Of a DNA stretch of 64,000 nucleotides, positions 22,039 to 27,516 are shown one piece after another (the first letter of the stretch is position 1; every line of letters starts with the position of its first letter). Origin of the DNA: Ignavibacteriales bacterium (lineage in GTDB: Bacteria; Bacteroidota; Ignavibacteria; UBA10030). Where the stretch lies: the NCBI GenBank assembly GCA_026390575.1, contig JAPLFR010000008.1, positions 124,001 to 188,000 on the forward strand. The letters are read 5' to 3'. The notes below the pieces were generated by a model. It saw only the letters and a list, made by a program, of their open reading frames with translations. It searched no databases and had not been told where the DNA came from. Both the position numbers and the translations under genes were made by a program.

Positions 22039-22067
22039 TTGACAATCTACATTCCATTCGTTATATT
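22039..22067 (+). promoter_or_regulatory. Near-consensus sigma70 promoter
   Basis: TTGACA (22039-22044), a 17-base spacer and TATATT (22062-22067). This is the best promoter match in the window. Transcription would begin near 22074, about 190 bases before the porU start codon, and produce the structured RNA described next. Confidence 0.75.
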
Positions 22068-22073
22068 TTAACA

Positions 22074-22264
22074 ACAAAAGAAGAATTTGAACGGAGATTG
22101 TATCGAAGACTTGGTAAAGGTTTGTTCCTAAAGTAATTTGCTGTATTTGCTGCTCTAGGAATATTGTTCAAAGCATAAACCTTTTTCAAGTTCGGCTGAC
22201 AATCTCTAATAGAAAAGTTTAGCCGAACGAGAAAGTATATTTTCTCTCGTTTGGCTTTTTTTTT
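22074..22264 (+). ncRNA. Highly folded RNA of about 190 nt upstream of porU (small RNA or attenuator leader)
   Basis: From the promoter at 22039 the transcript folds into a rod. GGAGATTGT (22093-22101) pairs with ACAATCTCT (22199-22207), one G-U. A 7/7 internal loop follows. ACTTGGTAAAGGTTT (22109-22123) pairs with AAACCTTTTTCAAGT (22177-22191), with one U-U mismatch and one G-U. TTCCTA (22125-22130) pairs with TAGGAA (22156-22161), with a 15-base bulge on the 3' side. The apical loop holds two TTTGCTG repeats. An alternative stem GTTCGGCT (22190-22197) with AGCCGAAC (22221-22228) would break both the rod base and the terminator. The size and rod shape recall 6S RNA, but the central-bubble geometry is not convincing. 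It is not a riboswitch class I recognise. Confidence 0.55.
22221..22264 (+). terminator. Intrinsic terminator abutting the porU start codon
   Basis: AGCCGAACGAGA (22221-22232) pairs with TCTCGTTTGGCT (22245-22256) over 12 positions with one G-U, followed by nine T residues (22256-22264). The porU ATG is the next base. The left arm is shared with the alternative stem GTTCGGCT/AGCCGAAC, so a terminator/antiterminator choice is possible. Confidence 0.8.
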
Positions 22265-25200
22265 ATGAAAAACATTTTTGCATTTATACTCTTAGTGTGC
22301 ATCGGACCGATAACGGGTGCAGCGCAGCCGTTGACAGAAATCCGAATTGTCAGTGAAGATCAACACTCAGTTGTTCTTGAATTTACACCGCACTTCACTA
22401 CAGAGCACGTGATTGGAATTCATGGCGGTGTTTTTACACGGTTTTGTTTCTTTGAGAGCCAAACAACATTTGATTCAACGGGACAGGCAGATTTCTCGCG
22501 GAATATTCCATTGCTCTTTCCATCGACACAATATTCAATCCATGTGCTTGGGAGTGAATTCCAAATTAAAGATTCGATAAAACTTTTGCCGAAGCCCACG
22601 ATAAAATCCTTAAAAGATTTCGGAATAAGTGAAAGCTACGACGACACGAAGTTCATCCAAGTTGCACGATCGTTATCACAAAGTGCGCTTGCTGAAGTTG
22701 CGCGTGTCGGTAAAACAAGTCTTGGGTGTATGGGAATACTGATATTTCGCCCCATTCAAGTGATAGATAGAGAAAAAGTAAGAATGTACTCGCGTATTGT
22801 TGTACGACTGGAATTTAAAGATGTGTTACCGGATGGTATGCATTCTACCTGCTTTCTTCGAGGAGAATTACCGCAGAAAGCACAACTTTCCAAAATGGGT
22901 CAAACCAGTTTTCGTAAAACAACTGCGGGCAATTCTCCATTTGCACAGGGAGATTGGTATCGAATCGATGTGACAGATGCGGGTATGTATAAATTGGATT
23001 ATGACTACTTACGTAAGTTGAATATTTCACTGAGTGATATCAATTCAATTCGTTTATTTGGAAATGGTGGTTTGGTACTTCCGGATAACAATACAGACCC
23101 GAGGCCGGACTCATTAGTGGAAATTCCGCGCCTTGTTGTACGAAAAAATAGCGTCGGTGCCGACACGGCGGATTATATCGTTTTTTATGGACGAGGAGTG
23201 AAGGGATGGCGCTACAATGCAAACACCAAGAAATTTCGGCATTATATTAATCCATACACTGAAAAGAATTGTTATTTCTTTACCGTGAGTCAAGGAACAG
23301 TAGGAAGGCAGATGGATTCAATTGTTTCTGTAAATCGGAATTCGACATCAATACAATATTTTCAAGAAAAAATATTTAAAGAGGAAGAAATCAATAATCT
23401 TAGAAATTCTGGCAGAAGATGGTTTGGCAAAGAATTTACAAGTCGAGACGATATGGACACATATTATAATTCTCTACAGGGAATCGTCTCGAATACACAA
23501 ATCAATTATGTCTTCAACTTTGCTCGTCGTTCACCCACGCAAGATGTATTGAATATATTTGAGAACGGCAGCGCTCTTACACAAAGATCGATGGGGGCAA
23601 CAAGCATGGGGGATGGCGAGACAGAACCATGGGCAAACGATCTCACTTTTTCTGCGACCGGAATATTGCCTCAGACCAATACGAACGCGAGCAGTGTAGT
23701 CAAAATTCAAGTAACGGCCAATGATGAAAGTTCAAGTACTTGGTTAGATTGGATGGAAATTTTTTACCAACGGAAATTTGAAGCTTTGAACGACGCTCTT
23801 TTATTCACAACATCGGATGCCGCAGGATCATTGCAATACAGTGTAAAAAATCTTTCTTCAGAAGTCCGTGCTTTCGATGTGACAGGTCATGATAATGTTA
23901 AGCAAATAATAGGATTGACTCAGGCAGGTGATTCGTGCACATTGCAACTCCAGCAGACTGCGGGAAATGTACGTGAGATTGCTGTCGTCGGTACAAACGG
24001 GTATAAAATTCCCGTGGCGGGGACAAAAGTCGATAAATTTATTCTCAATAACAATCTTCAAGAAAATAATCTTCACGATTTTCAAGAACAAATTGATTTC
24101 ATTATTATTTCTCCGATCGAATTTATCTCTGAAGCTAACAGATTAAAAGAATATCGCCAAGTACACGATAGCTTACATACACTCGTGGTGGACATTCAGC
24201 AAATCTTTAACGAATTCTCCGGTGGTCTTCCGGATCCGTTGTCAGTGCGGGAATTTTTGAAATATACTCAAGACAATTGGGTGAATCCGCAGCCACGATA
24301 TGTCTTGCTGTTTGGTGATGGATATTTCGACTATAAAAATAAAATCACACCTCGTAATTGGATCCCTCCCTACGAACCGGAAGAATCTTTCGCAACAGTC
24401 AATTCATACCCATGCGATGACCAATTTATTATGTTTGGTTCTTCAAATTCCTATGCGCTTGCAATCGGACGGCTTCCGGTGCGTACTCTTAAAGATGCTT
24501 CAATAGTAGTAGATAAAATAATTTCTTATGAAACAACTTCCCCATTAGACCCATGGCGAAATAGAATGACATTTGTTGCAGATGATGGAAAAAAAGGTAT
24601 AGAAGGGGATGACGGCTCACTGTATACCGATCATTCAGAAGAATTATCTAAAACAAGTGCGCTCCAGAGTTATGAAATAAACAAAATTTATATTGTTGAA
24701 TATACTACCGTGAATAGCGCGGATGGCCGCAGGAAGCCGGATGCAAATAAAGCAATTGTTAATGCATTAAATTCGGGAACGATCATTACTAATTATATCG
24801 GTCATGGCAATAACCGGTTGTGGGCGCATGAATCAATCTTTACACGAGAAGTTGAACTGCCGCAGCTTTTCAATAAAGAACGATTAAGTTTTGTTGTCAC
24901 GGCAACGTGCAGCTTTGGATGGTATGATAATCCAACGGAAGTGAGCGCAGGAGAACAATTGGTCACCATGGAACAAGGCGGTGCTATTGCTGATTTTACA
25001 GCAGCGCGAGTAGTTTATGATGGTTATAATTTTGATCTGGATAAATCCTTGTTTAATTATCTCTTACAAAAAAATTCCGATGGACAGAATCCAAGATTAG
25101 GTGATGCGTGTCTTTTGGCAAAATCGAATAATTCGGATCAAAACAATACCAACAAATTTCATCTTTTCGGCGATCCTACCGTTCGCCTGATAATGCCAAA

Positions 25201-26269
25201 GAATGAGGCTACCGTTGATAGTGTAAACGGATTCAGCATAGTAACAAATGATACAATTAAGATTAAGTCCCTGGGGCGTGCACGTATTGCAGGTACCGTG
25301 AAACAAAACAATAGATTGATGTCTTCATTCAATGGCATAGGCACAATCCAACTTTTTGATTCACAAAAAGATATATCCATCGTGGATGGAGTTGTTTATA
25401 ATAATCTTTTCCAATTCAAAGTAACTGGCAGCTTGTTGTATCGTGGCGATGTCTCTATCACGAATGGACGCTATGAAGCGATTATTCCTATTCCCAAAGA
25501 CGTAACGATTGGAAAAAACGCACGGATTTCAATGTACGCCTGGAACAGTCAAACGGATGGAACTGGAAGCACCGAACAGGTAATGATTGACGGCGTAGAT
25601 ACAACGATAGCTAAAGATACAGTAGGGCCGGTTCTAGCGGTGTATCTGGATACGATATCATTTCATCCTGGTGGGATAGTGAAAAGCAATCCGATTATTA
25701 TTGTGCAGCTTGATGATGAAAGCGGTATTAACGTATCGACTGTTGGAGTAGGACATCAATTATCAGCAACTTTAAGTAACCCAGAGCGGACATTCGACCT
25801 TTCCAATTTTTATCGCAGCAGTCTTGATACGTACAAAAAAGGAGAAGTGCGTTATCCATTGCGTGATCTGAGCGACGGTAAATATACATTACGCGTGAAA
25901 GCGTGGGACATTCAGAACAATTCATCGGAAACTGAGACTTTTTTTGAGGTTCACACTGCTGACGACTTTGGATTGCTCAATGTTGTGAATTATCCAAATC
26001 CGTTTTCAAATTCGACAACGTTCACATTCCAACGCACCTCATCCGATCCGATAGATGTTGATGTAAAAATTTATTCAGTTGCAGGCCGTTTAATTGGAAT
26101 TATCCATGTGCAAAATGTTGCGGAGAGCTTTGTGAGAATACCATGGGATGGAAAAGATAATGATGGAAGTGCTCTTGCCAATGGAATCTATTTCTATAAA
26201 TTAATTGTGCACGATAAAGTCGGACAACGCTCCAACGAAACAATCGGTAAGCTTGCTGTCATGCGATAA
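22265..26269 (+). CDS. porU: T9SS sortase PorU (C25-family cysteine peptidase)
   Basis: This 1334-residue protein starts with a signal peptide (KNIFAFILLVCIGPITGAAQ). The C25 (gingipain-type) catalytic pair is visible: His847 in YIGHGN and Cys882 in TATCSFGWYDNP. A long N-terminal beta region precedes it, and the C terminus has YPNPFSNSTTFTF and NGIYFYKL. PorU sits on the outer membrane, removes the C-terminal signal from T9SS cargo and attaches the cargo to the surface. The gene for its partner PorV follows. The ATG comes straight after the terminator T run, so no Shine-Dalgarno site exists; expression needs readthrough plus an unusual translation start, or another promoter. An upstream start is not available in frame. 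Confidence 0.88.
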   Translation: MKNIFAFILLVCIGPITGAAQPLTEIRIVSEDQHSVVLEFTPHFTTEHVIGIHGGVFTRFCFFESQTTFDSTGQADFSRNIPLLFPSTQYSIHVLGSEFQIKDSIKLLPKPTIKSLKDFGISESYDDTKFIQVARSLSQSALAEVARVGKTSLGCMGILIFRPIQVIDREKVRMYSRIVVRLEFKDVLPDGMHSTCFLRGELPQKAQLSKMGQTSFRKTTAGNSPFAQGDWYRIDVTDAGMYKLDYDYLRKLNISLSDINSIRLFGNGGLVLPDNNTDPRPDSLVEIPRLVVRKNSVGADTADYIVFYGRGVKGWRYNANTKKFRHYINPYTEKNCYFFTVSQGTVGRQMDSIVSVNRNSTSIQYFQEKIFKEEEINNLRNSGRRWFGKEFTSRDDMDTYYNSLQGIVSNTQINYVFNFARRSPTQDVLNIFENGSALTQRSMGATSMGDGETEPWANDLTFSATGILPQTNTNASSVVKIQVTANDESSSTWLDWMEIFYQRKFEALNDALLFTTSDAAGSLQYSVKNLSSEVRAFDVTGHDNVKQIIGLTQAGDSCTLQLQQTAGNVREIAVVGTNGYKIPVAGTKVDKFILNNNLQENNLHDFQEQIDFIIISPIEFISEANRLKEYRQVHDSLHTLVVDIQQIFNEFSGGLPDPLSVREFLKYTQDNWVNPQPRYVLLFGDGYFDYKNKITPRNWIPPYEPEESFATVNSYPCDDQFIMFGSSNSYALAIGRLPVRTLKDASIVVDKIISYETTSPLDPWRNRMTFVADDGKKGIEGDDGSLYTDHSEELSKTSALQSYEINKIYIVEYTTVNSADGRRKPDANKAIVNALNSGTIITNYIGHGNNRLWAHESIFTREVELPQLFNKERLSFVVTATCSFGWYDNPTEVSAGEQLVTMEQGGAIADFTAARVVYDGYNFDLDKSLFNYLLQKNSDGQNPRLGDACLLAKSNNSDQNNTNKFHLFGDPTVRLIMPKNEATVDSVNGFSIVTNDTIKIKSLGRARIAGTVKQNNRLMSSFNGIGTIQLFDSQKDISIVDGVVYNNLFQFKVTGSLLYRGDVSITNGRYEAIIPIPKDVTIGKNARISMYAWNSQTDGTGSTEQVMIDGVDTTIAKDTVGPVLAVYLDTISFHPGGIVKSNPIIIVQLDDESGINVSTVGVGHQLSATLSNPERTFDLSNFYRSSLDTYKKGEVRYPLRDLSDGKYTLRVKAWDIQNNSSETETFFEVHTADDFGLLNVVNYPNPFSNSTTFTFQRTSSDPIDVDVKIYSVAGRLIGIIHVQNVAESFVRIPWDGKDNDGSALANGIYFYKLIVHDKVGQRSNETIGKLAVMR

Positions 26270-26400
26270 TCCATTGATAGCAAACTCACGTGAAACAAAT
26301 ACATAGTAGAACATGTGCATCTCAAATTAAATTCATGCTTGTTACTCACGCTGGTCAGAAAATATATCAGCATTCATTATTCTTAGGAGGATTACACGTT

Positions 26401-27516
26401 ATGATAAAAAAAATGATTTTTGTAATGGTCGTCGTAGGAATTTGTGTTCCAGAGATCATGCGGGCACAAACCACGCAAACAACAGCAGTACCATTCTTAC
26501 TCATTGTGCCGGATTCAAGAGCAAGCGGAATGGGAGAGGTTGGTGTAGCGTTGGCGGATAACGCATGGGCTACATTTTGGAATCCAGCCGGACTTGCCTT
26601 CCAAAAAGGTTCTGAGCTTGCAATGACCCACACAAATTGGCTCCCTGGTTTGGGATTATCAGATATCTGGATTGCTCATCTCGCATACAAACAACCGGTT
26701 GAAGATTTAGACGGAATAGTAGGCGCTCAATTAACGTATCTCAATCTTGGTGAGTTTAATAGGACGAGCAATTCACCAGAAGTAATCGGTACATTTACAG
26801 GATATGAGATGGCTGTTGCCGCAACATATAGCACAAAGCTTACCGAACAATTGGGTATTGGCACAAGCGCCAGAATTATCTATTCTCATCTTGCAGATCA
26901 AGGAGCCGGACAAGAGAAGGGAAGCGGAACTTCGACAGGATTTTGTTTCGATGTTGGATTAATGTATCGTCCGGCCGTCTTGCGCATTCCTTTAACAGGT
27001 ATTGATCTCGGTAAGAGCATTAGTTTTGGTGTGAATATTGCGAATATTGGTCCTAAGATGTCGTATGTCGACAGAGCGCAAGCAGATCCTTTACCGATGA
27101 ATCTTCGTCTTGGGATGGCATACAAAATTATTGAAAGTGATTACAATAATATGACTGCCACTGTAGATGTAAACCGATTATTAGTAAATCGATATGGAAC
27201 TTCGTCAGATGAATTCTACAAAGCATTCTTTACGACTTGGTCAAGCGGCAATATCAGTGAACAAATACGCCGTTTCGATGCAGGGGCTGGGTTGGAATAT
27301 TGGTATGGTTCACCGAGGCTCATTGGACTACGGGCTGGATATTTCTATGAGGATCCGAGAGAAGGGAATCGAAAGTTCATGACGTTCGGCGCCGGTCTTC
27401 GATATGATCTCTATGCATTTGATTTTGGATACCTGAGCGCTTTTGAAGGTCAGCATCCGCTGGACGGAACATTACGCCTGACCCTTTCCATCGGCTGGGG
27501 CGGTGATGAGAACTAA
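26401..27516 (+). CDS. porV: T9SS outer-membrane protein PorV
   Basis: The ATG at 26401 follows TTAGGAGG and gives a signal peptide (KKMIFVMVVVGICVPEIMRAQ); the longer frame from 26290 is not needed. The mature N terminus contains FLLIVPDSRASGMGEVGVAL and FWNPAGLAF, the diagnostic start of the PorV/PorQ FadL-like 14-strand barrel family. PorV shuttles T9SS cargo from the translocon to the PorU attachment complex. It lies about 130 bp downstream of porU. Confidence 0.9.
   Translation: MIKKMIFVMVVVGICVPEIMRAQTTQTTAVPFLLIVPDSRASGMGEVGVALADNAWATFWNPAGLAFQKGSELAMTHTNWLPGLGLSDIWIAHLAYKQPVEDLDGIVGAQLTYLNLGEFNRTSNSPEVIGTFTGYEMAVAATYSTKLTEQLGIGTSARIIYSHLADQGAGQEKGSGTSTGFCFDVGLMYRPAVLRIPLTGIDLGKSISFGVNIANIGPKMSYVDRAQADPLPMNLRLGMAYKIIESDYNNMTATVDVNRLLVNRYGTSSDEFYKAFFTTWSSGNISEQIRRFDAGAGLEYWYGSPRLIGLRAGYFYEDPREGNRKFMTFGAGLRYDLYAFDFGYLSAFEGQHPLDGTLRLTLSIGWGGDEN

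Follow-up and report, generated by a model that had tools for sequence, protein, structure and literature searches.

The window analyzed here, a 64,000-nucleotide stretch of an Ignavibacteriales contig, contains a leader followed on the same strand by the genes for the type IX secretion system (T9SS) sortase PorU, for PorV and for a T9SS-dependent M6-like protein, in this order, while the gene upstream of the leader is a divergent glgA (Table 1). Judging from the sequence, porU and porV are probably co-transcribed, and the GTG at 26290 is probably too early to be the porV start. An earlier reading of the same DNA, made from the sequence only, had stated that porU lacks a ribosome-binding site of its own; this holds but is ordinary in Bacteroidota, which as a rule lack Shine-Dalgarno sequences (PMC9723704). 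In a Flavobacterium transcriptome, osmotic pressure was found to induce porU and a porU promoter is listed (PMC9723704). As a side observation, a signal-peptide-like stretch (MIKKMIFVMVVVG) starts about 37 residues into the porV open reading frame.

Table 1. Features of the porU leader, the genes that follow it and the second copies of the element.
Feature	Position	Strand	Basis or remark
Promoter TTGACA-17-TATATT	22039–22067	+	11/12 consensus matches; conserved ahead of porU
-35 hexamer TTGACA	22039–22044
-10 hexamer TATATT	22062–22067		spacer of 17 nt
Rod	22093–22207	+	predicted fold; 25 family and 62 order/class sequences show covariation
P1 of rod	22093–22101/22199–22207
Small inner helix of rod	22103–22106/22192–22195
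P2 of rod	22109–22114/22186–22191
P2b of rod	22116–22123/22177–22184
P3 of rod	22125–22130/22156–22161
Near-invariant 5' strand of rod core	22110–22122	+	consensus UUGUUAAAGGUU, here CUUGGUAAAGGUU
Shared (switching) strand	22181–22197	+	pairs within rod, or as antiterminator (22181–22187 and 22190–22197) with 22221–22235
Intrinsic terminator	22221–22264	+	12-bp stem 22221–22232/22245–22256, T run 22256–22264 (nine T); sequence and predicted fold
porU, type IX secretion system sortase	22265–26269	+	NF033707 T9SS_sortase 963 bits (cutoff 420); PF01364
porV	26290–27516	+	NF033710 T9SS_OM_PorV 264.5 bits (cutoff 250); 20-bp gap after porU
Second copies	L164:268–380; L209–L215, L217, L218		shorter leader, changed letters, ahead of PorV2-like gene

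Given that shuffled DNA yields about ten looser promoter matches per 4 kb, a single-site promoter match is weak evidence by itself. The near-perfect sigma70 promoter of the sequence-only reading is nevertheless borne out by its homologues, as a TTGAC/TATATT-like promoter lies upstream of 62 of 66 elements, with the hexamers spaced by exactly 17 nt in 61 of them, whereas shuffled upstream DNA used as a control scores 10/66. Transcription of the leader would begin at about 22074.

The rod-like fold reported earlier was likewise recovered. The leader has a minimum free energy (MFE) of -56.5 kcal/mol (z = -4.7), a stability not reached in any of 200 shuffles, and the predicted rod takes up about 115 nt of it. 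Covariance modelling and a search for compensatory changes, both proposed with the earlier reading, revealed conserved pairing across the porU upstream regions: in an alignment of 62 sequences, 87.6% of cells are paired, 32 of 41 pairs change on both sides, and there are 452 double-change cells, where shuffles give 163 and slid controls no more than 123; these counts are biased upwards by the fitting of this alignment to the structure. The effect size and the family-level result leave little doubt about the covariation of the predicted structure. Variation is unevenly spread along the rod. The core (UUGUUAAAGGUU/AACCUUUAACAA) is nearly invariant, with its A-A-A-G-G pairs constant in 57–61 of the 62 aligned sequences, and an internal-loop motif, UAUCGA/UAUAG, is conserved; the outer helix P1 is free to change its letters, with compensation, and the apical part differs widely in both length and sequence. 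The two TTTGCTG repeats pointed out in the earlier reading are both present (22137–22143 and 22146–22152) but are incidental, since they are not conserved even inside the genus. Antisense model matches at the same site stem from the near-palindromic rod.

After the rod stands the terminator, which the sequence-only reading had described as a 12-position hairpin with nine T residues beside the porU start; its 12 pairs are found, and its T run ends at 22264, directly abutting the ATG (22265–22267). A terminator scanner with an 8-nt loop limit overlooked it. Within the 62-sequence alignment, 93% of the cells of the terminator helix are paired and 10 of its 12 pairs have changed on both sides. The alternative pairing with the terminator left arm, also noticed earlier, is exact, GTTCGGCT at 22190–22197 being complementary to AGCCGAAC at 22221–22228, and longer than claimed, as seven further pairs between 22181–22187 and 22229–22235 bring it to 15 bp; the rod 3' strand is thereby matched to the terminator 5' arm plus the loop. 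Over 66 sequences the mean energy of this duplex is -16.2 kcal/mol for cognate strands, -11.7 kcal/mol for swapped and -8.3 kcal/mol for shuffled ones, and none of 5000 permutations reaches the observed energy sum, a test inflated by the relatedness of the sequences. The antiterminator columns are paired in 83% of cells versus 30–49% when slid, and the pairing is kept despite letter differences between families (ACAAGCC/GGCUUGU, ACCUUUAAC/GUUGAAGGU, AGACCUUU/AAAGGUCU), with a weak antiterminator in a few members (such as loci L135, L143 and L152). Taken by itself, the antiterminator shows modest column covariation, with 11 both-side cells compared with 5.6 in shuffles, among related and hence not independent sequences. 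With this reservation about the columns, the comparison indicates that a mutually exclusive antiterminator is conserved among porU leaders, and the low variation of the rod core may be due in part to this three-strand constraint.

The distribution of the element follows porU closely. A DNA similarity search located it in five congeners and in one further genus, a covariance model of seven sequences in 29 of 32 family genomes, and rebuilt models, first of 25 and later of 62 sequences, in 31 of the 32 and through the order. In 55 of the 56 order genomes in which both were located, the element shares its contig and strand with porU and directly precedes it, the sole exception being a match on a different contig in a genome that is 62% complete. 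Over the order, the median gap to porU is 5 nt, with some values estimated by extrapolation from where the porU match begins. Genomes carry at most one copy before porU, and many have a single copy overall; a short pattern search across the order mainly recovered known porU leaders. Beyond the order, sequence-verified members stand ahead of porU in the class families f9, f12, f13, f17 and f20. Weak model matches in families f10, f14, f21, f24 and f25, which have no porU downstream, were rejected as chance, and none of 23 more distant Bacteroidota porU loci yielded the element. A phylum-wide search, its matches judged by score and length only, gave nothing convincing beyond the class, and a phage search gave chance matches only.

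In ten family genomes, weaker model matches were found upstream of PorV2-like genes. Among the PorV2-like proteins, the single one tested scored best with NF052325 PorVQ2, although under the curated cutoff (E 9e-69), and it shares 62–71% identity with the other nine. These ten leaders keep the three-strand logic, most of them with altered letters (GUUAGAG / CUCUAAC / GUUAGAG). Two of the ten were left out of a comparison between porU and porV2 leaders, one whose terminator was mislocated by the scoring script and one that had no porU partner in the comparison; in all eight pairs compared, either rod strand pairs better with the terminator of its own leader than with the terminator of its counterpart in that genome. 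The remaining weak extra matches in these searches are mostly lone terminators and were not accepted as copies of the element.

Taken as a whole, these features very probably describe a transcription attenuator acting in cis, whichever the sign of its signal. A hairpin beside the ATG could instead act on translation initiation or on the stability of the mRNA, not on termination, and in most of the family it ends 8–14 nt upstream of the ATG, in the space that an initiating ribosome would occupy. Nearly all members, however, pair a GC-containing stem with a U run, the hallmark of an intrinsic terminator, and the estimated gap to porU reaches tens of nucleotides in other families, which a start-blocking hairpin could not tolerate, so that we hold this account to be highly improbable. 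It is also quite improbable that the terminated RNA of about 190 nt acts in trans as a small RNA, 6S-like or other, whose place before porU is historical. Its own strong promoter and terminator, its rod shape, its size and its low copy number would suit such a molecule, but the short gap to the porU start has been held across the order, the antiterminator pairing, needless for a free small RNA, has been retained, and the second copy is likewise tied to a T9SS gene.

The 6S part of that proposal was examined separately. The leader resembles 6S RNA (RF00013) in its size and long rod and differs from it in having neither a model match nor a large central bubble and in being fixed to porU. The RF00013 model has no match in the window or elsewhere in the same genome, and its matches in 12 relatives, only three of them above the Rfam cutoff, all lie away from the porU leader. 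A 6S identity was accordingly rejected, and of the two readings first offered for this DNA, a 6S-like discrete small RNA or a new leader controlling the T9SS sortase, the latter is the one supported, by its exclusive attenuator pairing, its conservation in family, order and class, its covariation and its fixed position. The 6S RNA of the host lineage seems to be poorly covered by the Rfam model. The search of Rfam for 6S and riboswitch families suggested with that reading returned no match for the leader: Rfam 15 (4227 models) gave chance-level matches only against the window, even at permissive E-values, and chance matches only against the porU loci of 15 relatives, while matches at the porV2 and class loci were limited to a tRNA and one below threshold. 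Nor did inspection of the leaders by eye show a conserved start codon and open reading frame of the kind expected for a leader peptide. The best reading is that the element represents an RNA family missing from Rfam and a putative new cis-regulatory attenuator for type IX secretion genes.

Predicted energetics bear on how such an attenuator might work. The MFE fold includes the terminator in all 66 leaders, and rod and terminator together are much more stable than the antiterminator, so that switching would require an outside factor. When the terminator 3' arm is absent, as in a truncated transcript, 58 of 66 leaders form the antiterminator if the rod 5' strand is blocked, versus 16 if this strand is free; because the MFE of full-length transcripts with the 5' strand blocked favors it in just 18 of 66, the antiterminator would have to win by the order of transcription. 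Given these numbers (66/66 for the terminator, 58/66 against 16/66 for the antiterminator), we prefer default termination relieved by a factor that holds the 5' strand. In the default OFF state, the leader would fold into the rod and sequester its 3' strand, the terminator hairpin would then form, and RNA polymerase would halt at the porU start codon. In the ON state, the conserved 5' strand (UUGUUAAAGGUU) would be kept unpaired, with a trans-acting protein or RNA as the likeliest agent, the 3' strand, once free, would pair with the terminator 5' arm and loop and block the terminator, and porU, probably together with porV, would be transcribed. We infer termination and read-through, the direction of the switch and the trans-acting signal from the sequence comparisons, and consider this full version, a default-OFF attenuator of a new RNA family relieved in trans on the rod 5' strand, to be the probable one.

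The opposite signal sign would apply to an OFF-type riboswitch, in which a small molecule would stabilize the rod, at the UAUCGA/UAUAG loop or in the apical part, and thereby cause termination, the antiterminator forming when no ligand is bound. A shared-strand design is typical of classical OFF transcriptional riboswitches, and the anatomy of the leader is the same; the conserved loop motif, the near-invariant core and the 16 of 66 truncated transcripts that form the antiterminator with a free 5' strand also speak for a riboswitch. Set against this, the rod alone already has a stability of -30 to -39 kcal/mol, for which a ligand seems superfluous in reaching the OFF state, the variable apical part leaves no compact conserved aptamer core, and the regulated genes, porU and porV2, encode secretion parts rather than metabolic functions. 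We therefore regard a riboswitch as unlikely.

The proposed attenuator shares features with several known systems. As in the OFF riboswitches SAM-I and purine, the 3' strand is common to an upstream helix and to an antiterminator overlapping the terminator 5' arm, and the terminator is placed just ahead of the gene; unlike them, the porU leader has no compact conserved aptamer or Rfam match and would regulate secretion genes, not metabolic ones. Antitermination of the BglG/SacY type is similar to our proposal in its default termination and in a trans factor that selects between exclusive structures. In BglG systems the protein-bound hairpin (RAT) itself overlaps the terminator, whereas the conserved rod of the porU leader does not overlap the terminator stem in the 62-sequence alignment; the blocked element would here be the rod 5' strand, and the antiterminator a separate third pairing. 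Transcription of T9SS component genes is also regulated by PorXY-SigP in Porphyromonas gingivalis, at promoters and through an ECF sigma factor, without an RNA leader; the down-regulated genes that the consulted passages name do not include porU (PMC4800418).

If true, our proposal would place an RNA-level control point for type IX secretion at porU, mirrored by a sister copy ahead of porV2, and would add to a poorly studied bacterial group a broadly distributed RNA family absent from Rfam. The literature searched, which included few subscription papers, holds no description of an RNA leader for porU or the T9SS, and such absence is no proof. It can be speculated that the leader senses, for instance, secretion load or surface assembly. 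More tentatively still, as a possibility that we would not yet call probable, the attenuator may define a dedicated T9SS regulon, in which an RNA-binding factor or signal reporting secretion status controls porU (with porV) and porV2 across much of the class in the Bacteroidota/Ignavibacteriota group.

Two departures from the common architecture were observed among the homologues. In family f20 (L160:250–403), a T run follows the outer helix of the rod and a separate CCGAA terminator was not recognized, so that the arrangement may be a one-hairpin variant. At family f5 loci (L118, L120, L123, L125 and others), a T run (GTTGCTTTTTT) forms the end of the rod, ahead of a second terminator. The leaders of family f5 may, to judge by their sequences, carry two terminators in tandem.
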